This document shows positions 31,903 through 62,845 of a stretch of DNA of 64,000 bases, piece by piece. The stretch is taken from assembly GCF_018390735.1 (NCBI RefSeq), contig NZ_JAHBCL010000001.1:186001-250000 (forward strand), in the 5' to 3' direction. Made by a program: the position numbers and the translations under genes. Source of the stretch: Fusibacter paucivorans (GTDB lineage Bacteria; Bacillota; Clostridia; Peptostreptococcales; Acidaminobacteraceae). Within the stretch, counting starts at the first letter, position 1. Each line of letters opens with the position of its first letter. The notes beneath the pieces are model-generated. The model saw nothing but the letters and a program-made list of their open reading frames with translations, did no database searches and was not told the origin of the DNA.

Positions 31903-34900
31903 TTATTGAGTCGGATTATCCAGCAAATGATAAAGTATCTGAGCGATCTGTGCTCTCGTTGCGCTTCCGCTTGGATCTAGGACACCCTCATGACCGGAAA
32001 CAATCCCCGCTGATACAAATGTGCTCATCGGTTCTCGCGCATAGTCAGAAATCGCATCCACATCACTAAATGCGGCAAGTGAAGCAACTGTCGCTGTTTC
32101 CGGCAACTCATTCAGGATGTTCAGAGCGTGATAGAGCAGTGTCATCATGTCCTGTCTTGAAATCGCCTGATCCGGTGCAAACAGGTTGTTGCCAACACCG
32201 CTTGCGATGCCGAGGCGTTTAGCTGCTGACAGATATCCTGTATAGTACGTATCACCTGCATCGAAGAAATTACTGGTGATCACTTCATCTGCATCAATGC
32301 CATAGGCATTCATCAGCATGACGATAAATTGACCTCTGGTGAGTACCCTGTCCGGACTAAATAATTGATCGCCTGTCCCACTTGTAATTTCTCTTGCTGC
32401 ACAGAATGCAACGGCATCGTAATACCAGTCATCTTTTACGACATCCTTAAAGTCAACGCTGTTATAGCCAACAGCATAGTAGCTAAAGTGAGTCGTTTCA
32501 AATACAACCATGCCGGCTTCTGCATCATAATGACCATTGGTAACACAATTTAACTGATTGTCACCGTCAACGTACCAAACGACAATGCCATTTGGATTTT
32601 CAAGTTCGTCGGCTGTTGGCGTATATGGAATGCTGACACCAACTTTTGCATTTTCATTACGCCAATCGGATCTCTGTCCGTTGATCGCCACTGAGAGCGA
32701 GATAACAGGTCGATCGCCAATGGTTGCCTGTGCTTCAGTTGATAAAGCATTGCGATCAACGTTGCCAATTTCGATCTCCGCATTGCCAGTGATCTCATTA
32801 TCGGTTCCTGCAAACATGTTTGACGGCAGTGTAATATTGCCGGCTTCACTGTTCAGCGTCACGGATCCACCGCTGGTTTCTGCTGATAGATCGGCTACTT
32901 TTAAGCCAACGGCGTAACCAGTCACCCCTTCAATCGTTGGCATTGTAATAACCAGTGACTTGCCTTCTGCAATCATCGCCCCCTGATCTGCCGCAATCTC
33001 TGCAGCCGCATTGGTACTATTCACTTTGATCGCAACATTTCCGGTTCCATCGCCAGTCATCGGGGCTTCATATGAAGCCGGCGGTTCAGTATTGGTATTT
33101 GCATTACCTGTCGGTGAGGTTGGTCTCCTTCTCGCATCAACCGACACTTCAATTGACACATTCAGCGAAACCTGATTAGGATTGACAACATCTTCTGGAA
33201 GGATTACCGTCCCCAATATCGTAAAGGTCTGTGGTGAGGTATTCGTTTCATCATAAGTACTATCTGCTACTTGCCATGTCACTGCTGACATAACACTTTC
33301 CGCATCCGTACTCAGGATTACCTGTGTCGGCAATCCCAGCGCTTCTGCCGTCTTGCCGGTTCCGTTGGCAACGGCTGTTATACGGTCTGGTGGTATAACC
33401 GCCAGCAGTATCTTGTTGGTTTGTGCCGGTTCTGTCACTGTGAAATCAATTGTAAATGATTGACTTGCAATCGCTTCACCTGCGACTGTCACTTCTGCGG
33501 TATAAAAGCCTGCGCCCAATCCACTGACAGGCCAAATCTTAAATTGCTTTTGTCCACTAACATCAATACTGTCCAGTCTTGCTGTTGACAGTTCAAATTG
33601 ATCGGCATCTGATCCATCTAAGCCGATCGTCAAATCGCCTGAAGGCAAATTTCCCGTGTTAACCACTGTCACCGTTAAGGCGTCAGCCGTTGTATAATTT
33701 ACAGTCTGTGTATCAAATGCATACGTTCCCATTTGGCTCAGGCCAATGCCGCGTGCCATTGCTTCATTGACGACAAACTTCACTGTGAACAACTGTGTCT
33801 CAACCGCGTCACCTGTCACAGCGACCGTTGCCATATAGGTGCCGATCGGCAAATCATTTTTTGTTTTTACTTTAAACAATGCATTGCCATTTTTCGCAAT
33901 ATCATCGATGCGATCTGTTGACAAGCTAAATGCATCTCGATCAGAACCTTCCAGAGCGATATGCAGCTGACCGGTTGCCTGATTTCCGTCATTATCAATG
34001 GTGACACTGACAGATGAAGCCGTTGTATAATTGACTGTTTGTGATGGGAAAGTATAGACCCCCATCTGATTGAGTTTGATGCTGTAGACACTTGCTTCTT
34101 TGACAATAAACTGAATGTCGAACGTCTTGGAAGCAACTGTATCTCCTGAAACGGTAACTGTCGCATCATAACTGCCGACCTGCAAATCGGATTTTGGCGA
34201 TACCGTAAAACCACTTTGTCCGTTTTGCAAAATACTGCTCAAATCATCGGATGAAAGCATAAAGGCTTCTTTATCCGCACCGCTTAACGCGAGATGCAAA
34301 TCACCAGTCGGCTGATTGCCCTCATTAGTCACTGACACAGAAAGCGGAGAAATTGAAGTATAATGAACCGTTTGCGTTTCAAAATGATACGTTCCAACTT
34401 GATCTAAAGCAATCCCATAGGTTTTCAGTTCTGCTACGGTAAAAGCAACCGTAAAGGATTTTGACGCCACATTATCCCCCGAAACAGTTACCACAGCCGC
34501 ATAAAGCCCCACCGGTAAATCATCTTTTGGCATCACGGTGAAACTATTCTGACCGTTTACCGCCAGACTGCTCAGCGTTTTTTTTGAAAGCATAAAGTTG
34601 TCTTTGCCAATGCCGTTGAGCGCAATCACAAGGTCGCCTGTCGGCTGATTTCCCTGATTGGTCACTGTCACCGCCAGTGGTGACACCGCTGAGTAGCCCG
34701 CGGTTTCTGCACTAAATATATAGGCGTCCTCACAGCTTAAAGTAATACCAAAGGTATCTGCGGCTGTTGCTGGGAAAATGGCTGTTATCACACCGCTATT
34801 GGCATTATTAACTGCCGCTGTCGCGCCTGCCACTGTAAAGAAATTCTCCGGTATGCCGTTCAGGGTGTAACCCGCCTTTGGCATTAACACAATGGTAGCT

Positions 34901-37900
34901 GTGTAGGAAGTGCCGGCTGTAAAGAGATTGTCACTTGGCGACCATGTCACTGTCCCAATGTACTGCGCCGTCTCGTTTATCGTGGTGACTGGCACGGCAT
35001 TTTTTTCAGGCACGGTTATACCGTTTATTGCTGCTATATCAATAACCGGTGTCGTATCTGTCACTGAGATCGTCAGCGTCTGATCAACACCACTGTCGAA
35101 TTTAAAGGTAAGCACCGTATTACCAGTTGACAGTGCTGCAAGGTAATTTTTATCAAAGGTCATTGTTGACCCCATTATACTGTAATCCGTTCCGGATGCA
35201 AGTGCTGCATCACCATTGTAAATGCCGGTTAGCGTATTGTCATTCAGCGTCAGGATCACACTGATATCGGCATAATCTGTGCTGCCGGCGTATTGATCAA
35301 AGTTTGCTGTCGCTGGATTAATCGTACTGTTTGCAAGTGCCGTTGCCGGGAACACTGCGGTAATCACACCGCTGTCCGCTGCGTTGGTCGCCGTCGTTGC
35401 CCCTGCTACTGTGAAGAAGTTCGCTGTAACGCCATTTAATGTGTAACCTGTTTTCGGCGTCAACGTAATGGTTGCTGTATAGGCTGTTTCCGGTGCAAAG
35501 AAGTCACCGCTTGGCGACCATGTCACCGTTCCCGTATACTGCGCCGTCTCGGTAACCGTCGCTACCGGAATGCCATTTTTAACCGGCACCGTCACGCCGT
35601 CAATCGCTGCTATATTAATCGTCGGCGTCGAGTCTGCCACGGCGATCGTCAGCGTCTGATCGGCACCACTGTCGAATTTAAAGGTAAGCGTCACATCCCC
35701 CGTTGGCAGTGTTGCCAGATATGCTTTCTCAATGGTGACTGTCGATCCCGTCACGCTGTAATCCGTGCCGTAAATCAATTCAGAAGCGCCATTGTAAATG
35801 CCGGATAACGTATTTTCATTCAGTGTCATGGCGACGCTGATATTGACATAGTCTGAACTGCCTGAATATCGATCAAAGCTTGCAGTCGATTTATTCAGGG
35901 TGCTGTTCGCCAAGGCGGTTGCCGGGAACATAGCCGTAATCACACCGGAATTAGCGCTGTTAAATGCCATTGCTGCCCCAGGCACTGTAAAGTAGTTCGC
36001 ACTTACGCCTGAAAGTGTGTAACCCGCTTTTGGCGATAATGTAATCGTCGCCATGTAGGCAGTCTCCGGCGCAAAGAAATCATCGCTTGGCGACCACGTC
36101 ACCGTTCCCGTATACTGCGCCGTCTCGGCAATCGTCGCTACCGGAATGCCATTTTTAACCGGCATCGTCACGCCGTCAATCGCTGCTATATTAATCGTCG
36201 GCGTCGAGTCTGCCACGGCGATCGTCAGCGTCTGATCGGCACCTTCGCTAAATTTAAACATCAAGGTGGTATTCCCGTTTGCCCGCGCCGCGAAATAGTT
36301 TTTATCAAGTGTTACCGTCGATCCCGACACACTGTAATCTATACCTAAAACCAGCTCTGCGGATTCATTGTAAATGCCTGAAAGGGTGTTTTCGTTCAAC
36401 GTCATATTAACGCTGATATCCGTATAATCTACGCTGCCCGTATATTTATCAAAATTTGCGGCGATTGGATTAATGGTACTGTTTGCCAGTGCCGTCGCTG
36501 GGAACATTGCAGTAATTACACCGCTGTCCGCTGCGTTGGTCACAGTCGTTGCCCCTGTTACTGTAAAGAAATCCGCAGCGATGCCTTTTAATGTGTAACC
36601 TGTTTTCGGCGTCAATGTAATCGTCGCGGTATAGACCGTGTCTGCCTTAAATGGATTATCATTTGGCGACCATGTCACCGTCCCCGTATACTGTGCCGTC
36701 TCGGTAACCGTCGCTACCGGAATGCCATTTTTAACCGGCACCGTCACGCCGTCAATCGCTGCAATATCAATGAGCGGCGTCGAGTCGACCACGGCGATCG
36801 TCAGCGTCTGATCGGCACCTTCGCTAAACTTAAACGTCAAGGTGGTATTCCCGTTTGCCCGCGATGCGAAATAGTTTTTATCAAGTGTTACCGTCGATCC
36901 CGACACACTGTAATCTGTACCGGAAACCAGCTCTGCGGATTCATTGTAAATGCCTGAAAGGGTGTTTTCGTTCAACGTCATATTAACGTTGATCTCCGTA
37001 TAATCTGCGCTGCCCGTATATTTGTCAAAATTTGCGGCGATTGGATTAATGGTACTGTTTGCCAGTGCCGTCGCTGGGAACATTGCAGTAATCACACCGC
37101 TGTCCGCACTGTTGAATACAGCCGAAGCTCCTGCTACCGTGAAGAAGTTCGCTGTAACGCCATTTAAAGTGTAGTCTGCTTTCGGCGTCAATGTAATCGT
37201 CGCGGTATAGACCGTATCTGCTTTAAAAGGATTATCATTCGGCGACCACGAAATGTTGCCTGTATACTGCGCCGTCTCGGTAATTGCCGCTGCCGGAATG
37301 CCATTTTTGACTGGCACCGTCACGCCGCCAATGGCTGCAATGTCAATAATCGGTGTCGTATCAACCACGGCTACCGTCAGCATCTGATCGGCACCGCTGT
37401 TAAATTTAAACGTAAGCGGTGTACTGCCTGTTGTCAGTGTTGAAAGGTATGCTTTATCAATGGTGACTGTCGATCCCGTCACGCTGTAATCCGTGCCGTA
37501 AATCAATTCAGAAGCGCCATTGTAAATACCGGATAATGTATTTTCATTAAGTGTCATGGCAATGCTGATATTGGCATTGTTGACACTGCCTGCATACTTG
37601 TCAAAGGTTGCCGTTTTCGGATTAAGGGCACTGTCAGCAATTGCTGTCGCCGGAAAGACGGCCGTAATAACACCTGAATTTACATTATTGAGCACAAACG
37701 TCGCACCTGCAACGCTAAAAGCATTAGCACCAACACCTGTCAGGGTATAAAGACCCTTTGGCATCAAAGTAATGGTAGCTGTATAAGCGGTCTCTGCCGC
37801 AAACGGGCTGTCACTTGGCGACCACGCCACTGTCCCGGTAAACTGATCCGTCTCCGTAATCGTTGTCACCGGCACTGCATTTTTCGCAGGCGGCGTCACG

Positions 37901-40900
37901 CCCCCTATCGTCGTTATCGTAATCGGGATTGGTGTGGTATCACTCACAGACACCGTGAGCACTTGATCGTCTCCTTCGCTAAACTTAAGCGTCAAATTCG
38001 TATCACCTTCACTTAGTGTTTCAAGGTATGAAGTGAGAATTGTTGCAGTTGTACCCGACACGGTATAATCCGTATCTGCTATAAGTTCCGTACTGCCGTT
38101 ATAAATGCCAGTAAGTACATTTTCATTAAGTACTAACGCTACTGAGATATCTGAATAATTACTACTGCCACTGTATAAATCAAAGGAATCTGAATTTGGA
38201 CTAATGGTGCTGCTAAGAGGCTTCGTTGCTGGAAATAATGCTGTAATAATACCACTATTCGCTTCATTGGTTACACTTGTCGCACCTGCCACGGAAAAGA
38301 AATCCTCTGTGACACCACTTAATGTAAAGCCCGTCTTCGGTGTTAATGTAATCGTTGCGGTATAAGTTGTAGCCGTTGCAAACGGATTGTCATCAGGGCT
38401 CCACGTCACCGTTCCCGTATACTGATCTGTTTCTGTGATTGTCGTCACAGGGACGGCATTTTTAACAGGTGGTGTAACGCCTTCGATTACAGCGATATCA
38501 ACAGCAGGTGTCGTATCGACGACAGATATGATTAACGTTTGATCTTTTCCGCCACTAAACTTAAACGTCAAGGTGGTATCCCCAACGGGCAGCGTTGAGA
38601 GGTATGATTGGTGAATCGCAAAAGCTAGCAGCATATCATAATCCTCATTCAAAATCAATTCATTTTCACCGTTGTAAACACCCGTAAACGTATAACCTGA
38701 AAGGGTCATGTTCAAAAGGATCGCTCTATAACCTGCACTGCCCGTGTAGCGATCAAAGGTAGCTGTGGATATACTGAGTTTAGCACTTATTTCATCTACC
38801 GTTACATTGATGGCAGTGCTTAAAGACACGGCGTCAGGATTAACAACACCTTCAGGCAATGCCACCGTACCACTTACAGCAAATGTCTGTTCTGTCATTA
38901 TTGCAGGGTCGTAGTCACATGAATCCACATCCCATGTCACAGCCACATCGACATCCCCAAGATCTGTCACCATGGTAACGGTTTCAGGCAATCCCAAAGC
39001 GGTTGCCGATTTTTCTGTTGCAGCTTTAACACCTGTGACATCACTTGGGGCCGTTATACTTTGAAGTGTTTTTAATGCTTCTACTGTAAAGCTGATATCA
39101 AATGACTTTGGCTCAATATTATCGCCCGATATGCCAATTGTTGCCGTATAGGTACCTGTGTCTAAGCCAACGTCCGGTGTGACGCGAATAGTCGATACAC
39201 CATCGACAGCCATGCTTAAAAATGACGATCTGTCCAGTGTAAAACAATCACTGTTTGTGCCGCTAAGCGCCAGCGTCATCGGCCCCGTTACTTGATTCCC
39301 ATCGTTGGTCAGTGTGAAATCAAAATACGGTGCTTCTGCATAGCCCACTGGTTTGTTCGCAAAGGTGTAGGTCTCCGTTTGATTAAAGGCGACACTGTAC
39401 ACCGGTATAGGCGTTATTTCAATTGCTACGCTGTAGGTTTCATCTATATTCTCATTCGATATATCAAGAAAAGTTTCATAATCTGTCGGGAGAAGTCCGA
39501 TTTTAGGGCTTAATGCAACCGTGTAGCTCTCCCCTTTCTCGATGCTGGGGATTGTCGTAACTGAATAGTCAAAAAAGTCGTCTAAAGTTGTTAAGTTTAA
39601 ATCACCCGTCGCCTTCGCACCTGTATTTGTTACAACAAATGACGTCTCCGGTGCCGTTTCATAGCCATCCTCAATGGGATCAAATACATAAAACCTTGGA
39701 CTTACCGAAATGTTATATGCGATTACATCAAACAGCACCACTTCTTTTGAGTAGTCCCCATGTGTTGCAATCAGCGTGGCATCTCCGCCGTTGTCTGATA
39801 TCGTAACATGTCCTGAATCATCTAAACTTAATCCATCTGACCAGTCTGGGTCAAGCGCCCATGCTACGTCATTTACCATACTCACTGAAAAATCCGTGTA
39901 GACGGCACTTCTCGACTCATAATCTATCGTATCAACACCCCTGAGAAAGATGGGTGCTGCCGAAACAATAGCCACATCGGTATCTGCCATACCGACTAAT
40001 CTTGGATAAGTCCCCGTTGTAAACTGCCAAATTGACTCATCCCAGCCGCTAAAGGCGTTCCCTGTTGTCATGTCTGAGGTCAATAATGCCGTTCCATAGC
40101 CATCTGGTAAATATCCCGGGTCAATACTGGTATACATTTGAATATCATAGTAATTCCCGCTCATTGTCCCACCAAGATAATCACCGACAATGCCGCCATC
40201 GACATCAGAGCGACGAACACTGCCTGCGCTATAACAATTCAATATCGTACTATCACTACTCCCTGCGATCCCGCCGGCATTATCGCCATAGCTCACGATT
40301 AAACCGACATTATAACAATTGCTGATTTCACTCGTCGTGGTATTGTTGCCAGTTATGCCGCCGGCATTCCCATCGCCGCTGTAAACATATCCCGCATTGT
40401 AGCACTTTGTAATCGTTGAAGTCGTATTAATGCCAGCAATACCACCAACTTCAGTCATTGTCCCTTCCACATCACCTGTGTTATAGCTCTCTCTAATGAT
40501 TGATACTGGATTATTTTTTCCGGCAATACCGCCAACATACTGCGTGCCTTTAATATTGCCTGTATTATAGCAGTTTTCGATAATACTGCCTTGATAGTGA
40601 TAACCTGAGATCCCGCCGACATGACTGCCGCCGCCCTTTACATCTGCCGTATTATAACAGTTCGATAGGGTCATCGCCTTATACGATTGTCCAACGATCC
40701 CGCCAACTGCCACAACACCTGAAACCTTACCGGTATTGTAACTGTCACTGATAATGCCATTGATTGAGGATTTACTCAATAAACCACCCACGTAAAAGCC
40801 AAGACCTACAACACTGCCCGAATGATGAGAACCCGCAATATCAAAATCCCCACTGTAGCCTACAAGCCCACCTGCATAACTATTACCTTCTGAGGTGCCA

Positions 40901-41649
40901 ATAATACTGCCCGTTTGATAGCAATCTGTCATGCTGCCGCCATAACTTCTGCCGACAATACCACCAACATAGGAATAGCCAAATACATAACCGTTTTCGA
41001 CAGCGATGTTTTTAAATGTGACATCGGCGCCGTAACCTGTGAGACCGAAGAGGCCTTGGTTCTTTTCTTCTGAATGGGTATAAAGACCGCTGATCGTAAA
41101 ACCATTGCCGTCAAAGGTACCATCAAAGCTATGAACGACCTCACCAGCGTCATCATAATAACCAATCGGCGTCCATTCACTCAATGCAAAGGGAACCGTT
41201 TCCGTCGTCGTCGTACTGGTATCGTCTAAATAAAACGCCCCCGCGGTACTCGCCGAAAAGTTAAATGTATAATTATCACCTGACCAATCACCAAGCGCAC
41301 CCGTACCGATCCAGTAAGTATCGGTGCCGTCGGAGACCTTCATCAGTCCCGTATCCGCTTCAAAAGTAAGGACTATCCCTTCATTCAAGTTAATATCGGC
41401 GGACAGATAAAACGTCACGCCTTTCATTGTTTTGTGTCCATCGTTGACAGCTTCTGCCAAAGCGCTAAGTGCTTCCTTTGTGCCAATTCGATAAACGGCG
41501 CCGCTTGCGTACGTCTGTCCTTCCACATATGAAAAATCCGTCATGCCTGATGTGTCCACAGTGTCGGCATATGTCGGAAGTGCCATAATAGGCATCATCG
41601 CAAAAACCATGCACAATGAGAGCACGATGCTCAAAATCTTCTTCCCCAT
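31903..41649 (-). CDS. Giant S-layer-homology surface protein with GLUG and tandem X2-like modules
   Basis: 3248 residues. A signal peptide (cut near ALPTYA-DTVD, about residue 28) is followed by about ten GLUG-type repeats (224-496, pattern VGGIVG/YNTG), two roughly 105-residue beta modules, one Big_4-like domain, then seven tandem modules of about 192 residues (about 953-2298). Each module joins a CBM_X2-like domain (TLNENTLSGIYNG...GTDYSVSGSTVT) to a second domain ending in GVITAMFPAT. Four more roughly 110-residue beta modules, a second Big_4-like domain, a ZU5-like segment and three SLH domains (3064-3244) complete it. The protein should be secreted and held on cell-wall polymer by the SLH domains. 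The ATG at 41649 is chosen because AAAGGAG precedes it and the signal peptide begins there. A role in adhesion or polysaccharide binding is inferred. Confidence 0.92.
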   Translation of the reverse strand: MGKKILSIVLSLCMVFAMMPIMALPTYADTVDTSGMTDFSYVEGQTYASGAVYRIGTKEALSALAEAVNDGHKTMKGVTFYLSADINLNEGIVLTFEADTGLMKVSDGTDTYWIGTGALGDWSGDNYTFNFSASTAGAFYLDDTSTTTTETVPFALSEWTPIGYYDDAGEVVHSFDGTFDGNGFTISGLYTHSEEKNQGLFGLTGYGADVTFKNIAVENGYVFGYSYVGGIVGRSYGGSMTDCYQTGSIIGTSEGNSYAGGLVGYSGDFDIAGSHHSGSVVGLGFYVGGLLSKSSINGIISDSYNTGKVSGVVAVGGIVGQSYKAMTLSNCYNTADVKGGGSHVGGISGYHYQGSIIENCYNTGNIKGTQYVGGIAGKNNPVSIIRESYNTGDVEGTMTEVGGIAGINTTSTITKCYNAGYVYSGDGNAGGITGNNTTTSEISNCYNVGLIVSYGDNAGGIAGSSDSTILNCYSAGSVRRSDVDGGIVGDYLGGTMSGNYYDIQMYTSIDPGYLPDGYGTALLTSDMTTGNAFSGWDESIWQFTTGTYPRLVGMADTDVAIVSAAPIFLRGVDTIDYESRSAVYTDFSVSMVNDVAWALDPDWSDGLSLDDSGHVTISDNGGDATLIATHGDYSKEVVLFDVIAYNISVSPRFYVFDPIEDGYETAPETSFVVTNTGAKATGDLNLTTLDDFFDYSVTTIPSIEKGESYTVALSPKIGLLPTDYETFLDISNENIDETYSVAIEITPIPVYSVAFNQTETYTFANKPVGYAEAPYFDFTLTNDGNQVTGPMTLALSGTNSDCFTLDRSSFLSMAVDGVSTIRVTPDVGLDTGTYTATIGISGDNIEPKSFDISFTVEALKTLQSITAPSDVTGVKAATEKSATALGLPETVTMVTDLGDVDVAVTWDVDSCDYDPAIMTEQTFAVSGTVALPEGVVNPDAVSLSTAINVTVDEISAKLSISTATFDRYTGSAGYRAILLNMTLSGYTFTGVYNGENELILNEDYDMLLAFAIHQSYLSTLPVGDTTLTFKFSGGKDQTLIISVVDTTPAVDIAVIEGVTPPVKNAVPVTTITETDQYTGTVTWSPDDNPFATATTYTATITLTPKTGFTLSGVTEDFFSVAGATSVTNEANSGIITALFPATKPLSSTISPNSDSFDLYSGSSNYSDISVALVLNENVLTGIYNGSTELIADTDYTVSGTTATILTSYLETLSEGDTNLTLKFSEGDDQVLTVSVSDTTPIPITITTIGGVTPPAKNAVPVTTITETDQFTGTVAWSPSDSPFAAETAYTATITLMPKGLYTLTGVGANAFSVAGATFVLNNVNSGVITAVFPATAIADSALNPKTATFDKYAGSVNNANISIAMTLNENTLSGIYNGASELIYGTDYSVTGSTVTIDKAYLSTLTTGSTPLTFKFNSGADQMLTVAVVDTTPIIDIAAIGGVTVPVKNGIPAAAITETAQYTGNISWSPNDNPFKADTVYTATITLTPKADYTLNGVTANFFTVAGASAVFNSADSGVITAMFPATALANSTINPIAANFDKYTGSADYTEINVNMTLNENTLSGIYNESAELVSGTDYSVSGSTVTLDKNYFASRANGNTTLTFKFSEGADQTLTIAVVDSTPLIDIAAIDGVTVPVKNGIPVATVTETAQYTGTVTWSPNDNPFKADTVYTATITLTPKTGYTLKGIAADFFTVTGATTVTNAADSGVITAMFPATALANSTINPIAANFDKYTGSVDYTDISVNMTLNENTLSGIYNESAELVLGIDYSVSGSTVTLDKNYFAARANGNTTLMFKFSEGADQTLTIAVADSTPTINIAAIDGVTMPVKNGIPVATIAETAQYTGTVTWSPSDDFFAPETAYMATITLSPKAGYTLSGVSANYFTVPGAAMAFNSANSGVITAMFPATALANSTLNKSTASFDRYSGSSDYVNISVAMTLNENTLSGIYNGASELIYGTDYSVTGSTVTIEKAYLATLPTGDVTLTFKFDSGADQTLTIAVADSTPTINIAAIDGVTVPVKNGIPVATVTETAQYTGTVTWSPSGDFFAPETAYTATITLTPKTGYTLNGVTANFFTVAGATTATNAADSGVITAVFPATALANSTINPATANFDQYAGSTDYADISVILTLNDNTLTGIYNGDAALASGTDYSIMGSTMTFDKNYLAALSTGNTVLTFKFDSGVDQTLTISVTDTTPVIDIAAINGITVPEKNAVPVTTINETAQYIGTVTWSPSDNLFTAGTSYTATIVLMPKAGYTLNGIPENFFTVAGATAAVNNANSGVITAIFPATAADTFGITLSCEDAYIFSAETAGYSAVSPLAVTVTNQGNQPTGDLVIALNGIGKDNFMLSKKTLSSLAVNGQNSFTVMPKDDLPVGLYAAVVTVSGDNVASKSFTVAFTVAELKTYGIALDQVGTYHFETQTVHYTSISPLSVSVTNEGNQPTGDLHLALSGADKEAFMLSSDDLSSILQNGQSGFTVSPKSDLQVGSYDATVTVSGDTVASKTFDIQFIVKEASVYSIKLNQMGVYTFPSQTVNYTTASSVSVTIDNDGNQATGQLHIALEGSDRDAFSLSTDRIDDIAKNGNALFKVKTKNDLPIGTYMATVAVTGDAVETQLFTVKFVVNEAMARGIGLSQMGTYAFDTQTVNYTTADALTVTVVNTGNLPSGDLTIGLDGSDADQFELSTARLDSIDVSGQKQFKIWPVSGLGAGFYTAEVTVAGEAIASQSFTIDFTVTEPAQTNKILLAVIPPDRITAVANGTGKTAEALGLPTQVILSTDAESVMSAVTWQVADSTYDETNTSPQTFTILGTVILPEDVVNPNQVSLNVSIEVSVDARRRPTSPTGNANTNTEPPASYEAPMTGDGTGNVAIKVNSTNAAAEIAADQGAMIAEGKSLVITMPTIEGVTGYAVGLKVADLSAETSGGSVTLNSEAGNITLPSNMFAGTDNEITGNAEIEIGNVDRNALSTEAQATIGDRPVISLSVAINGQRSDWRNENAKVGVSIPYTPTADELENPNGIVVWYVDGDNQLNCVTNGHYDAEAGMVVFETTHFSYYAVGYNSVDFKDVVKDDWYYDAVAFCAAREITSGTGDQLFSPDRVLTRGQFIVMLMNAYGIDADEVITSNFFDAGDTYYTGYLSAAKRLGIASGVGNNLFAPDQAISRQDMMTLLYHALNILNELPETATVASLAAFSDVDAISDYAREPMSTFVSAGIVSGHEGVLDPSGSATRAQIAQILYHLLDNPTQ
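34750..38780 (-). repeat. Seven direct DNA repeats of about 575 bp inside the SLH gene
   Basis: Equivalent points of successive units fall near 35322, 35897, 36470, 37045, 37622, 38202 and 38778. Units 4 and 5 are almost identical over long stretches (compare 36460-36530 with 37035-37105), which suggests recent duplication or gene conversion and makes unit number likely to vary between strains. Confidence 0.9.
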
Positions 41650-41698
41650 AAGATGCAATCTCCTTTCAACTGTTAATACTGCATTGTCATACCGCATG

Positions 41699-41929: not shown

Positions 41930-41969
41930 GTCATCACTCCTGACAAATTTCGAATCCTGTTTTTGCTTA

Positions 41970-42004
41970 TAAAAAAACCACTATACAAAATTGTATAATG
42001 GTTT
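41970..42004 (-). terminator. Terminator of the LuxR-type regulator gene
   Basis: Read leftward, AAACCATTATACAA pairs with TTGTATAGTGGTTT (one A-G mismatch) and is followed by TTTTTTTAT. It separates the regulator from the DUF2442-SLH unit. A second short palindrome, CTACCC-acc-GGGTAG, lies at 42019-42033. Confidence 0.85.
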
Positions 42005-42057
42005 AATCATTACGTAACCTACCCACCGGGTAGTCTTTTCATTCGCCCGCTTATATG

Positions 42058-44550
42058 CTACTCCGTTTTACCAAAGTATTGTTTCAATAGTGCCCGGCTG
42101 CCAATGGCTAGCTTGGCAAAGACCGATTTAAGTGCAAACTTCACCGTATTCTGAGAAATATAGAGTTTCTCAGCAATCTCCTTATTGGTATACCCTTTTG
42201 ATGCCAGTAAGGCTACTTCATACTCGCGGTCTGTCAACTTATCCTTATCTTCGGGAAAATACTTTTGCTTAACCGCTTCTTTAGCATCAGCATACGTTTT
42301 ATAAAGCATTAAAATATACGTCGCATCTTCTCTGTAGCAGTCCGAAAAAACCAGTTCTTTCACAAGCGGCTCGAGATAGTCGCCATTTTCAACAAAAGGC
42401 ATATAGAGCTGATCCGGCATCGCAATTGCCAATGCCTTTTTGAGGTCTTCCCGCGCATCGTCAATTCTTTTCAGCTTCCAGTTTGCAGCGGCTGAATAAA
42501 GGTACGTATACACACTGCTCAATAAAGTCGGAAAAATTGATGCAATTTGTAGGAAGTGCGGCACACTGCCCAATATTTTTGTATAGCGTTCATTGATCAG
42601 CATCACCCGGCCATAAATAATGTTAAACATGCCATAATTGGCATAGAGCAGTCGAATGTCACCTTGCTCAGGCCGTCCGAGGCTATCAGGAATTTTATAT
42701 TTCTGATCCAGTTGTGCATAAAAACTGATTTCACACAATTCTACTTTATGCAAATACTGGTATTCAACGCGCTTTGTCATTTCCTCACGCATTCTGTGCA
42801 AGAGTTCAAACATATGCTGATAATCCTGTTTCATCAGATCAATGCGCATTTGCAAATAGATTCCCGAGAGCTCAATACTCCACTGATCCGATGACTGTGC
42901 CATATGCATTGCCTTATTCAGTGATATCTCCGCGTTTACAAAATCGCCGCGATGGTAATAGCATTCCGCTTCCATGATAATCTCGGCACCATTGCCGTGC
43001 GCTCTTGTAAGCCGTCGATAATGCGGCAGTTTTTCAATCATCGTTTTGAGATGTGTCTGAAGTTTGCCGCTCTCCCGATAATAAAGATAGAGAATAGAAG
43101 GTGAACCGTGCGACCAGTCTGAATTCGTATCAAAAACCGATGTCGCCGTCCCCAGCAATGCCCATGCACGATCAAAATGTTCAGCCATTTGATCGAGGTC
43201 ATTAAATGCTGCAATGCCCTGCATCAATTCGAGTTCACCGTAAAATGCCTGACGCTGTGCTTCTGAGAAACCACCTGCATTTTCGGCCGCTTCTCTGCAA
43301 AGTTGACCGAAAATTTGAAATTCATTGTGCAGCGTCATATGCATTGCCAAAATCAGCAGCGCATAGGGATAACGCCCTTTAATAGCCGGCGGGCATTCTT
43401 TGACATATTTATACAATGCTTTTACACTTTGTGCTGTTGAATTTTTTACTTTTTCAGTTTTGATCGACTGTAAAATGGCTTCAAAATCACCACAGCGATA
43501 CCAGAACTGTCGGGCAGTAAAAAAATCTTGCTGTTTAGAATACCATGCCGCTGCCTGTCGATATAAGCGCATTTTAAAATCTGAGGGCTTTGTTTCAAAC
43601 ACCTCTCGAAGATACTCTCGAAACAAACTGTGAATCTGATAATTTTTTGTGCGCACGTCATAATTGATAAAAGTATTCTTTTGTACTGTGTTTTCAAGAA
43701 TCTGTACCGCACTTTGACCGTCCCAAATGAACACCGCCTGTTTTAAGGTGAAATTGTCGAAGATGGACAGCATCGTCATCAATGCTTTCGCATCGTCATC
43801 AAGCGGTGTGTAGACAATTTTTTCAATGAGTTTATAGATGCTTTCCGGCGGTTCTAAAACGCCGTCTTTCAGATAACTCAACAGCATCAAATAAAGTGCA
43901 CTAATCCATCCCTCTGTCGCATCAAACAGCCATTTCGCTTGTTTCTCATTGATGATAACGCCACAAGCATGATAGTAATCTATTATTTCATTCTCAGTCA
44001 TTTCGAGACTTTCTTTTGTTACGTGATGCAGGATGCCCTTAAGCGACAATTCTTCGAGATGATGCAACTTCGTATAACGCCCCGTTAAAACAATATGAAG
44101 CCCTTCAACTTCATTGGCTGCAAGGGTTGTAATGAGGCGGTTGAGTTCTGGGCTGTCAATTAAATGATAATCATCAATCACCAGTACACAGGGGTTAACG
44201 AGATTAAGTGTCCCCATCAACTTCAACGTCTCTCGCAATGAAACGGCATCATTCGGAAAGCCCACTTGGATGAACCGCTGATAAAGACTTTCATTATAGT
44301 TGCCAAATAGTGTCGAAAACTCATCCCAGAAATGATCGATGAGTTCGTCATACACCTTGAGCCAAAGCACATCGGCTTTTGTATGCTCAAGGAAGTGCTT
44401 AACGGCAGTTGTTTTGCCATACCCCATGGGCGCTTCCACAATGGTCAGCGGATATTCCCAAATACTTTTAAGTGTTTCCAATAACCTTGGTGTGAAATAT
44501 AATTGCTTTGTTTGATCGCTTTTTCCGTTCAAAAATCCGCCTGCTTTCAT
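42058..44550 (-). CDS. MalT-like LuxR-family ATP-dependent regulator (LAL type)
   Basis: 830 residues. An N-terminal STAND-type ATPase has Walker A APMGYGKT (40-47) and a Walker B-like CVLVIDDYH (about residue 125). A long helical repeat region (about 340-740) is followed by a LuxR helix-turn-helix (LTDREYEVALLASKGYTNKEIA, about 765-825). Such proteins bind an inducer and ATP, then oligomerise and activate transcription. It lies upstream of the DUF2442-SLH unit and downstream of the S41-like gene on the same strand, and may control either; no binding site was identified. Confidence 0.92.
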   Translation of the reverse strand: MKAGGFLNGKSDQTKQLYFTPRLLETLKSIWEYPLTIVEAPMGYGKTTAVKHFLEHTKADVLWLKVYDELIDHFWDEFSTLFGNYNESLYQRFIQVGFPNDAVSLRETLKLMGTLNLVNPCVLVIDDYHLIDSPELNRLITTLAANEVEGLHIVLTGRYTKLHHLEELSLKGILHHVTKESLEMTENEIIDYYHACGVIINEKQAKWLFDATEGWISALYLMLLSYLKDGVLEPPESIYKLIEKIVYTPLDDDAKALMTMLSIFDNFTLKQAVFIWDGQSAVQILENTVQKNTFINYDVRTKNYQIHSLFREYLREVFETKPSDFKMRLYRQAAAWYSKQQDFFTARQFWYRCGDFEAILQSIKTEKVKNSTAQSVKALYKYVKECPPAIKGRYPYALLILAMHMTLHNEFQIFGQLCREAAENAGGFSEAQRQAFYGELELMQGIAAFNDLDQMAEHFDRAWALLGTATSVFDTNSDWSHGSPSILYLYYRESGKLQTHLKTMIEKLPHYRRLTRAHGNGAEIIMEAECYYHRGDFVNAEISLNKAMHMAQSSDQWSIELSGIYLQMRIDLMKQDYQHMFELLHRMREEMTKRVEYQYLHKVELCEISFYAQLDQKYKIPDSLGRPEQGDIRLLYANYGMFNIIYGRVMLINERYTKILGSVPHFLQIASIFPTLLSSVYTYLYSAAANWKLKRIDDAREDLKKALAIAMPDQLYMPFVENGDYLEPLVKELVFSDCYREDATYILMLYKTYADAKEAVKQKYFPEDKDKLTDREYEVALLASKGYTNKEIAEKLYISQNTVKFALKSVFAKLAIGSRALLKQYFGKTE

Positions 44551-61668: not shown

Positions 61669-62556
61669 TTAACGTTTAAAATATTGGTTCAGAAGATTCG
61701 TGAGCATCTCTTGATGATGCGGTTCCAACGTCGTAAGTGGTGCTCTACACGGTCCTGAACTCAAATCCCCGCCTAAAATGTTAAGCGCTGACTTCACCGG
61801 TATTGGGTTAACATCGCAGAAGAGCGCATTAATCAGCGGCAGGCAGTCAAGTTGAAGCGCTAAGCTCCCTTGATGATTGCCTTCTAAGTACAAAGCGACC
61901 ATATCGTGCATCTCCTTTGGTATAACATTTGCAGCAACAGAGATGACGCCCACTCCTCCCAGTGACAGCAATGGTAATACTTGATCGTCATTGCCGGAGT
62001 AAATATCCAGTTTGCCGGCACATTTCTGTGCGAGCTCAGCAACCTGTGCAATATTGCCGCTCGCCTCTTTAATCGCGACGATATTATCAATTTCTGAAAG
62101 TTTTAATGCCGTATCAGGCAAAATGTTCATCCCCGTTCTGCTCGGTACATTATAAAGAATAATTGGAATGCTCACAGATTCAGCAATCACCTTATAGTGC
62201 TCATAAAGCCCTTTCTGGCTGGTTTTATTGTAGTATGGTGTTACATGTAAGAGCCCATCCGCACCGACGGCCTCAGCTCTTTGTGAAAGGCTGATCCCAT
62301 GTCTCGTATCATTGCTGCCGGTTCCTGCGATAACAGGGACGCGCTTATTCGTATATTTTACAGCTGCCGCAATACAGTCAATTTGCTCATCATCGGTCAG
62401 TGTCGATGCTTCACCGGTTGTACCGCAGATGATTATCGCATCTGTACCGTTTTCAATTTGGAATTGAATAAGTGATTCCAATCGGTCGTAATCAACAGTT
62501 AAATCTTCTTTAAACGGTGTAACGATGGCCACACCAGAGCCTTTAAAAAGTGCCAT
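61669..62556 (-). CDS. dapA: 4-hydroxy-tetrahydrodipicolinate synthase
   Basis: 295 residues, standard length. Lys163 (IVAIKEASGN) forms the Schiff base with pyruvate; Thr46, Tyr109 and Tyr135 form the proton relay, each two residues later than in E. coli DapA. The enzyme condenses pyruvate and aspartate semialdehyde in lysine and diaminopimelate synthesis. The ATG at 62556 follows GAGGAG. A longer frame beginning at 62676 is ruled out because it runs through a lysine-riboswitch terminator. The gene is controlled by the riboswitch upstream and stands alone, with no other dap gene in the window. Confidence 0.96.
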   Translation of the reverse strand: MALFKGSGVAIVTPFKEDLTVDYDRLESLIQFQIENGTDAIIICGTTGEASTLTDDEQIDCIAAAVKYTNKRVPVIAGTGSNDTRHGISLSQRAEAVGADGLLHVTPYYNKTSQKGLYEHYKVIAESVSIPIILYNVPSRTGMNILPDTALKLSEIDNIVAIKEASGNIAQVAELAQKCAGKLDIYSGNDDQVLPLLSLGGVGVISVAANVIPKEMHDMVALYLEGNHQGSLALQLDCLPLINALFCDVNPIPVKSALNILGGDLSSGPCRAPLTTLEPHHQEMLTNLLNQYFKR

Positions 62557-62605
62557 TTTATTCTCCTCTTCATTTGTGATCGGTTGTTGTTTCTTTGTTT
62601 CATGC

Positions 62606-62637
62606 ACAAAAAAACAGCCAGAGAGAGTACTAGCTGT
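62606..62637 (-). terminator. Expression-platform terminator of the lysine riboswitch
   Basis: Read leftward, ACAGCTAG (62630-62637) pairs with CTGGCTGT (62614-62621) and is followed by TTTTTTTG. It lies 50 bp before the dapA start, so lysine binding would stop transcription before dapA. Confidence 0.85.
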
Positions 62638-62667
62638 GGACGAATCATCATTATTTAAATAAATCAT

Positions 62668-62845
62668 CAGTAGCACTCCATATGCTTTTTCAGCCTATGA
62701 CAGTTGGCTTGCTGTTAACAGACCAACCAGATTGTAATGACGTGGGCATTACGCACTTCGGCACCTTTGCCTTTCTGCGCTTCTCAAATGTACCCACATA
62801 CATCAAAACGCTTACTTATCATTGGTGCACCTCTACCTTTATTGA
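62668..62845 (-). promoter_or_regulatory. Lysine riboswitch (L-box) aptamer
   Basis: On the minus strand the conserved segments occur in order: GGTAGAGGTGC (62827-62837), GCAAAGGTGCCGAAG, a CTGG-containing arm, CTGTCATAGG and, at the end, TGGAGTGCTACTG (62668-62680). These match the lysine-sensing L-box that controls lysC, dapA and lysine transport in Bacillota. A promoter precedes it and a terminator follows it. Confidence 0.93.

Follow-up and report, generated by a model that had tools for sequence, protein, structure and literature searches.

Does a very long surface protein of Fusibacter paucivorans vary in the number of its repeated units, or in what those units contain? The gene lies on the minus strand of the 64,000-nt stretch of DNA analyzed here (the window), and the original prediction described its product as a 3,248-residue SLH protein built around seven near-identical X2-like modules, the number of which might differ between strains. 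The gene is real. An uninterrupted ORF spans 31903-41697, giving 3,264 aa from the first ATG at 41697, and the likely start is M17 at 41649, where a stretch resembling a signal peptide begins; translation from there yields the anticipated 3,248 aa. Coordinates of all features are collected in Table 1.

Table 1. Features of the stalk gene and its upstream neighborhood (window coordinates).
Feature	Coordinates	Strand	Remark
MalT-like LuxR regulator, directly upstream	42058..44550	-	same order in G001, contig C47
Terminator-like hairpin between regulator gene and stalk gene	41975..42004	-	pattern match only
SLH-anchored multidomain surface protein, 3,248 aa	31903..41649	-	first in-frame ATG at 41697 gives 3,264 aa
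Signal peptide	41566..41649	-	start M17, cleavage near residue 44; judged by eye
GLUG repeat region, N-terminal part	40183..40965	-	7 Glug (Pfam) stretches; boundaries approximate, placed by GGI.G motifs
Two CARDB-like beta modules before array	39067..39717	-	below CARDB cut-off
First Big_4-like module	38815..39063	-	
Unit 1 (X2 + d2)	38224..38799	-	
Unit 2 (X2 + d2)	37645..38220	-	
Unit 3 (X2 + d2)	37069..37644	-	inner, mosaic
Unit 4 (X2 + d2)	36493..37068	-	inner, mosaic; structure predicted for this unit
Unit 5 (X2 + d2)	35917..36492	-	inner, mosaic
Unit 6 (X2 + d2)	35341..35916	-	inner, mosaic
Unit 7 (X2 + d2)	34765..35340	-	
Four CARDB-like beta modules after array	33421..34752	-	
Second Big_4-like module	33157..33405	-	
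Pre-SLH domain without a name, ~200 aa	32455..33069	-	ends in THFSYYAVGY; ends approximate
Three SLH domains	31942..32451	-	motifs TRGQ, SRQD, TRAQ

Domain searches of the 3,248-aa protein recovered the predicted outline, with seven GLUG stretches, seven CBM_X2 domains and three SLH domains all above their Pfam cut-offs, and the six further beta modules were found as two before and four after the array. The four-module segment passed the Pfam cut-offs for CARDB (34.7 vs 22.7 bits) and PITM1-3 (36.1 vs 27.7 bits), and the two-module segment before the array fell just under the CARDB cut-off (20.5 vs 22.7 bits). Two further modules, which we take to be Big_4-like, resemble each other (38 of 81 aligned residues identical); the Pfam search of the protein returned no Big_4 match for them. 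From the N-terminus, the architecture comprises GLUG repeats, CARDB-like and Big_4-like modules, X2+d2 units, a pre-SLH domain and SLH domains. The pre-SLH domain drew only a sub-threshold Cadherin_4 match in the domain search, and its homologs at other loci carry THFS (L019 and L022), SHFS (L010) or HLS (L008). ZU5/UPA proteins cleave themselves at an HFS motif. An autopeptidase role in surface proteins of bacteria has been proposed for ZU5 domains, with a CxH motif named in the accessible part of that account (PMC3482391). Self-cleavage of the pre-SLH domain at HFS was considered as a candidate reading, and HLS in L008 argues against strict conservation of the motif.

All three SLH domains scored over the cut-off and each holds the arginine of a TRAE-type motif (Table 1). 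One gene of the F. paucivorans genome matched PS_pyruv_trans (E 1.2e-48), presumably the family that contains CsaB, though this family is broader than CsaB and was also matched in 8 of 14 control genomes. A role of the SLH motif arginine in binding pyruvylated wall polymer is described in the section available of PMC6081394. The N-terminus is, by eye, typical of a signal peptide. Across the genome, 48 SLH matches fell in 24 frames (frames counted by hand), so the stalk protein belongs to a large SLH set, in which two other frames exceed 3,000 aa (contigs C5 and C15; 3,875 and 3,095 aa). We consider it likely that the protein is an SLH-anchored stalk carrying its GLUG region outward, with inner units diversified by gene conversion. 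Following export via the signal peptide, the C-terminal SLH trimer would hold the protein on pyruvylated wall polymer. The stalk would be formed by two CARDB-like modules, a Big_4-like module, seven X2+d2 units, four CARDB-like modules, a second Big_4-like module and the pre-SLH domain, and this putative rod of beta domains would present the GLUG region as its tip.

The array consists of seven in-frame units of 192 aa, spaced at 576 nt and once at 579 nt. The prediction of near-identical modules did not hold, as DNA identity over full units ranges from 42 to 86% (all 21 pairs, in an ungapped comparison that depresses the values wherever unit 1 or 2 is involved) and no exact repeat is longer than 78 nt. 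Units 3-7 share 69 to 86% among themselves. Units 4 and 5, predicted to be almost identical, share ~94% over the first 384 nt and 62 to 72% beyond, giving 86% overall. Exact tracts connect units 3 and 6 (71 nt from unit position 117), 5 and 6 (78 nt from position 249) and 4 and 6 (68 nt from position 306). Tandem Repeats Finder reported 0 arrays; its longest period, 500, is shorter than the 576-nt unit, and it could therefore not have seen this one. Seven in-frame copies, near-constant spacing and seven X2 domains at 53 to 92 bits make the array more than chance. Within the F. paucivorans genome, matches to the X2+d2 unit pair were confined to the SLH stalk gene (five matches). What survives from the original prediction is thus a long surface protein of modular build that carries SLH anchors and X2-like modules; the near-identity of its units does not.

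Each unit has a CBM_X2 domain (PF03442) as its first half, recovered in seven of seven cases at 53.0 to 91.8 bits against a cut-off of 28.9, and these seven places are the sole CBM_X2 matches in the genome. By sequence, profile matches to the X2 half include cellulase modules and the X2 module of the CipC scaffoldin (1ehx). The confident model of unit 4 (pLDDT 96.8) agrees, its X2 half aligning with 4yzp (Z 13.8, rmsd 2.3, 91 residues aligned) and with 1ehx (Z 9.6, rmsd 2.7, 88 aligned). The likeness to CipC X2 extends to both sequence family and predicted fold; unlike in CipC, X2 is here paired with d2 in a repeated unit, its NGNT loop differs among units, and the host genome has no Dockerin_1 match. 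A search of a plasmid collection with the unit found one Paenibacillus record, matched by the X2 half alone (query 3-98; 13 places).

The second half, d2, which the original prediction had left unnamed, proved to be a real and widespread domain, with no match above cut-off when the stalk protein was searched against Pfam and NCBIfam. At E <=0.001, a level at which some matches are weak, d2 is found in 30 of the 391 genomes of the class Clostridia that were searched, and in 23 of 223 genera (own genome and genus included), mostly with no X2 nearby. It was present in 37 of the 40 loci examined, each with up to ~1.5 kb of flank on either side, and in none of these 40 was X2 directly joined to d2; at L008 and L020, which are the same place, four X2 domains are followed by ~100 residues and then a d2. 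A 733-aa frame in another genome (G204:C20) holds seven d2 domains, six of them inside the examined locus (L033), from which X2 is absent, so d2 can be a stalk module alone. BFVD contains one phage protein with d2 (A0A8D9UHK6, 331 aa; E 1.1e-11, 48% identity, TM 0.95). The family alignment (A5) has 47 d2 rows, leaving out those of L012, L048 and L052-L059, which are incomplete, repeated or the most distant, as well as the overlapping duplicates L009 and L020. For the other alignments, nine X2-only rows of A2 that the aligner had misplaced were excluded from A3, and A4 includes four of the seven window X2 halves.

The d2 half of unit 4 was modeled at pLDDT 97.8, with four strands of at least 3 residues. 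Against the PDB, d2 gave one chance match by sequence (E 0.74), 0 matches by fold at E <=0.001 (best E 1.4) and, among 438 re-aligned chains, 0 at Z 5 (best Z 4.4, rmsd 3.0, 68 aligned); the absence of a significant PDB match does not prove d2 a new fold. A worn X2 was rejected as its origin, the d2-X2 profile comparison giving a probability of 0.5% and hence no relation by that test. A profile model of the two Big_4-like modules touched d2 of unit 1 at only i-E 0.046, and one of 47 d2 members matched the NCBIfam Ig-like model GxPGS_dom at E 0.0005. Nine of the 47 matched Flg_new_2 (divergent InlB B-repeat, PF18998) at E <=1 (best E 0.0034), but this resemblance is weak and insufficient for filing d2 under that family, since unit 4 d2 reached 13.0 bits against a cut-off of 23.6; Flg_new_2 was not among the Pfam matches of the whole stalk protein at E up to 1. 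d2 is a separate domain family. Now that it has a clear boundary and a confident model, blank regions of surface proteins could be annotated with it. In a further genome, a 2,676-aa frame (G319:C1:2491308-2495750, L058) has seven distant d2 matches at ~600-nt spacing, and the five copies inside the locus look nearly identical by eye. The L058 protein is a better candidate for unit-number variation than the window array.

The X2+d2 unit pair matched 8 of the 148 genomes searched, own included. The genus is represented in that set by two genomes, our own and G001, and G001 was the only other match within it. The stalk gene itself was found in these two genomes only. The G001 gene is on two contigs that both end inside the array, and the reading frame is intact in both, as it is in the window. 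Because a gap in the G001 assembly extends from midway through unit 2 to the beginning of unit 4, the G001 unit number is not countable. Protein identity to the window was 94.9% over 1,248 columns (N-terminal) and 90.7% over 1,722 columns (C-terminal). At the DNA level, the first 650 codons were 98.6% identical and the region following unit 7 was 94.4% identical. Every G001 unit that is visible (1, the start of 2, and 4-7, the last four counted back from the C-terminus) resembles its positional counterpart in the window more than any other window unit, so the unit count is probably conserved in the visible array. Units 1, 2 and 7 are plain orthologs (92%, 95% over the 264 nt seen, and 93% DNA identity). 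Among the inner positional pairs, unit 4 stood at 87%, unit 5 at 88% and unit 6 at 89%, and these pairs had 0.258 synonymous differences per site vs 0.135 for unit 7 and 0.147 for the C-terminal flank.

These inner units of G001 read as mosaics of tracts that sit in different window units. Along G001 unit 4, the best-matching window unit is unit 4 as far as nt ~168 and unit 3 over nt ~168-336 (90 to 98% per 48-nt block from nt 192); the match is ambiguous over nt ~336-384, best to window unit 6 over nt ~384-456, and thereafter best to unit 4 or equal for units 4 and 6. At the protein level, window units 3-6 and G001 units 4-6 (n = 7; units 1, 2 and 7 left out) combine in various ways the few versions of three cassettes, grouped by eye. 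Cassette codons 65-76, in X2 and covering the NGNT-type loop, read NYFA.RANGN.T, AYLSTLTTGSTP or AYLA.LPTGD.T. The other two lie in d2, codons 137-144 reading DNPFKA.T or.DFFAPET and codons 161-183 occurring in three versions, the third loose. Unit 6 has an identical combination in G001 and the window, and G001 units 4 and 5 carry two combinations, A2-B2-C1 and A1-B1-C2, that are missing among the window inner units. The mosaic pattern draws on just two draft genomes, our own in 96 contigs and G001, probably a metagenome bin, in ~130.

Tests for recombination were in agreement with this pattern. A Sawyer-type permutation, scored by summing the squares of shared runs, was applied to four unit sets, each with all sites and with third positions only; in none of these eight tests did any of 3,000 permutations come as high. 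With the longest run as the statistic, 0 to 1 of 3,000 did so for all sites, and the result was weaker for third positions (74, 1, 33 and 26 of 3,000). Uneven constraint along the unit can mimic clustering. The four-gamete test was failed by 4,007 of 8,515 informative site pairs. Incompatibility was seen in 14.5% of the 944 pairs lying within 30 nt and in 55.5% of the 4,766 pairs more than 150 nt apart, and 0 of 1,000 permutations were as low for near pairs. The minimum number of recombination events was 30, a figure probably inflated by repeated mutation. Intragenic recombination among the units is well supported, and we infer that it took the form of gene conversion rather than unequal crossing-over. 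Inner units 3-6 would recombine with each other, conserved stretches acting as crossover points, and the variable cassettes would be reassorted as short conversion tracts, with the number and order of units mostly kept. After the two related species diverged, the middle units appear to have swapped short tracts among themselves. The question moves from unit number to unit reshuffling, by which the stalk may alter its surface and keep its length.

Whether such exchange benefits the cell is a separate matter. That the units recombine in neutral concerted evolution, their variation bringing no advantage, has a little under an even chance of being right. Tandem homologous DNA recombines anyway, and pN/pS stayed below 1 in all nine segments, reaching 0.68 in the one that covers the NGNT loop and 0.14 to 0.41 in the others, so selection for variation is not shown. 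Nor is a targeting of loops established, as amino-acid differences in predicted loops (0.265) exceeded those in strands (0.208) by a margin that 21 of 191 circular shifts reached. The persistence of divergent cassettes speaks against full homogenization, which would remove them, and the drop to 56% identity between G001 and window unit 4 at nt 192-240, between flanking blocks at 94% and 79%, argues weakly against neutrality. We offer only tentatively, as a speculation we rate well below the neutral one, that shuffling is built in, with conserved stretches as handles by which at least three cassettes are reassorted, and d2 as an uncatalogued class-wide family of sparse four-strand fold. If so, an environmental bacterium would gain combinatorial variation of a surface stalk at near-constant length, possibly against phages or for ligand range.

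Rather than a passive stalk, the array could be a multivalent surface that binds cellulose, a different polysaccharide or the cell wall, its loop cassettes tuning the ligand, a reading that we regard as unlikely. Pfam describes X2 as carbohydrate-binding, and of all segments the one that covers the NGNT loop shows the highest amino-acid change (pN/pS 0.68). NGNT is a conserved X2 loop motif, and its deletion from both CipC X2 modules cut cell adhesion to cellulose by 50%, yet CipC X2 directly binds neither cellulose nor the cell surface, according to the portion of PMC9022034 at hand. As far as their available text goes, published accounts disagree on direct binding by X2 (PMC12484212, PMC9022034), and we therefore claim no carbohydrate ligand. 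Exact NGNT is found in just two of the seven window units (4 and 5), the position reading GDT, GDT, GST, GDV and GNT in units 1, 2, 3, 6 and 7. X2 is limited to one gene of a draft genome in which a Dockerin_1 search gave 0 matches, and a cellulosome (scaffoldin) role was dropped on the latter ground.

SasG, Rib and Sgo_0707, known as Periscope Proteins, carry sortase anchors. Like them, as they are portrayed in the parts consulted of PMC8201768 and PMC9704523, the window protein is a single chain with a tandem beta-domain stalk and a C-terminal anchor. It is improbable, more so than a binding surface, that unequal crossing-over changes the unit number between strains here and so moves the tip nearer to or further from the cell. 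Beyond the tandem folded domains and the C-terminal anchor, such a mechanism could draw on the ~94% identity of units 4 and 5 over their first 384 nt and on the G001 assembly break inside the array. However, highly identical tandem repeat domains are a feature of Periscope Proteins, for which the same parts of these papers set no numeric threshold (PMC8201768, PMC9704523), and number variation is most extreme at the highest repeat identity (PMC8201768, in the text available); the window units are divergent at 42 to 86% DNA identity, and the six visible G001 units each resemble most the window unit at their own position. Of the Periscope pairing of an N-terminal functional domain with an anchor, the window protein has the anchor domains, and its GLUG region would be the candidate for the functional part. 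It differs further in its two-domain units, in SLH anchoring and in its variation, which was seen in sequence cassettes and not in unit number. Least probable of all is that short reads of similar units, or mixed strains, were misjoined into an apparent mosaic. Both genomes are drafts, and the G001 contigs stop inside the array; G001 is also a probable metagenome bin, so that strain mixtures could yield chimeric units. Against this, exact repeats of at most 78 nt in the window and 62 nt in G001 contig C95 are short relative to usual reads and make simple collapse unlikely, the window array sits inside a 304,440-base contig, mosaicism is strong within the window alone (0 of 3,000), and the reading frame is unbroken on all three contigs.

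The favored reading, a wall-anchored stalk with inner units diversified by gene conversion, can be set beside other known surface proteins. Fibrillar adhesins likewise combine repeated stalk domains with a wall anchor, and SLH is named among their attachment mechanisms in the part available of PMC8286594; seven X2+d2 units and four CARDB-like modules in tandem give the window protein a comparable stalk. The paper lists 82 stalk and 27 adhesive families (PMC8286594, same part). Unlike a fibrillar adhesin, the window protein has no recognized adhesive domain in Pfam and NCBIfam searches. Mosaic surface protein genes are a point of likeness to the alpha-like proteins of group B streptococci, the mosaicism of which was reportedly described by Lachenauer et al. 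in 2000; here, in contrast, it occurs between divergent X2+d2 units of one array, in an SLH protein of a bacterium in the class Clostridia. Among the titles listed in searches of open-access papers, none concerned an X2+d2 repeat protein. What sets the protein apart is its stalk, in which the two-domain units are divergent and exchange tracts to give mosaics, together with a domain family without a name.

Upstream of the stalk gene, the conserved position of the MalT-like LuxR regulator invites the guess that it might control the stalk gene. An Rfam search before the stalk gene found nothing over cut-off. An azaaromatic (yjdF) riboswitch-like match at 41962-42054 (+) scored 30.4 bits, below the cut-off of 45 bits (501-base search, E 0.0013), and no long plus-strand frame lies just downstream of it. 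A riboswitch before the stalk gene was rejected, this match being sub-threshold and on the other strand. Elsewhere in the window, a lysine riboswitch (62663-62843, minus strand, 104 bits) is located at the start of frame 61669-62676, the product of which we take to be dihydrodipicolinate synthase.
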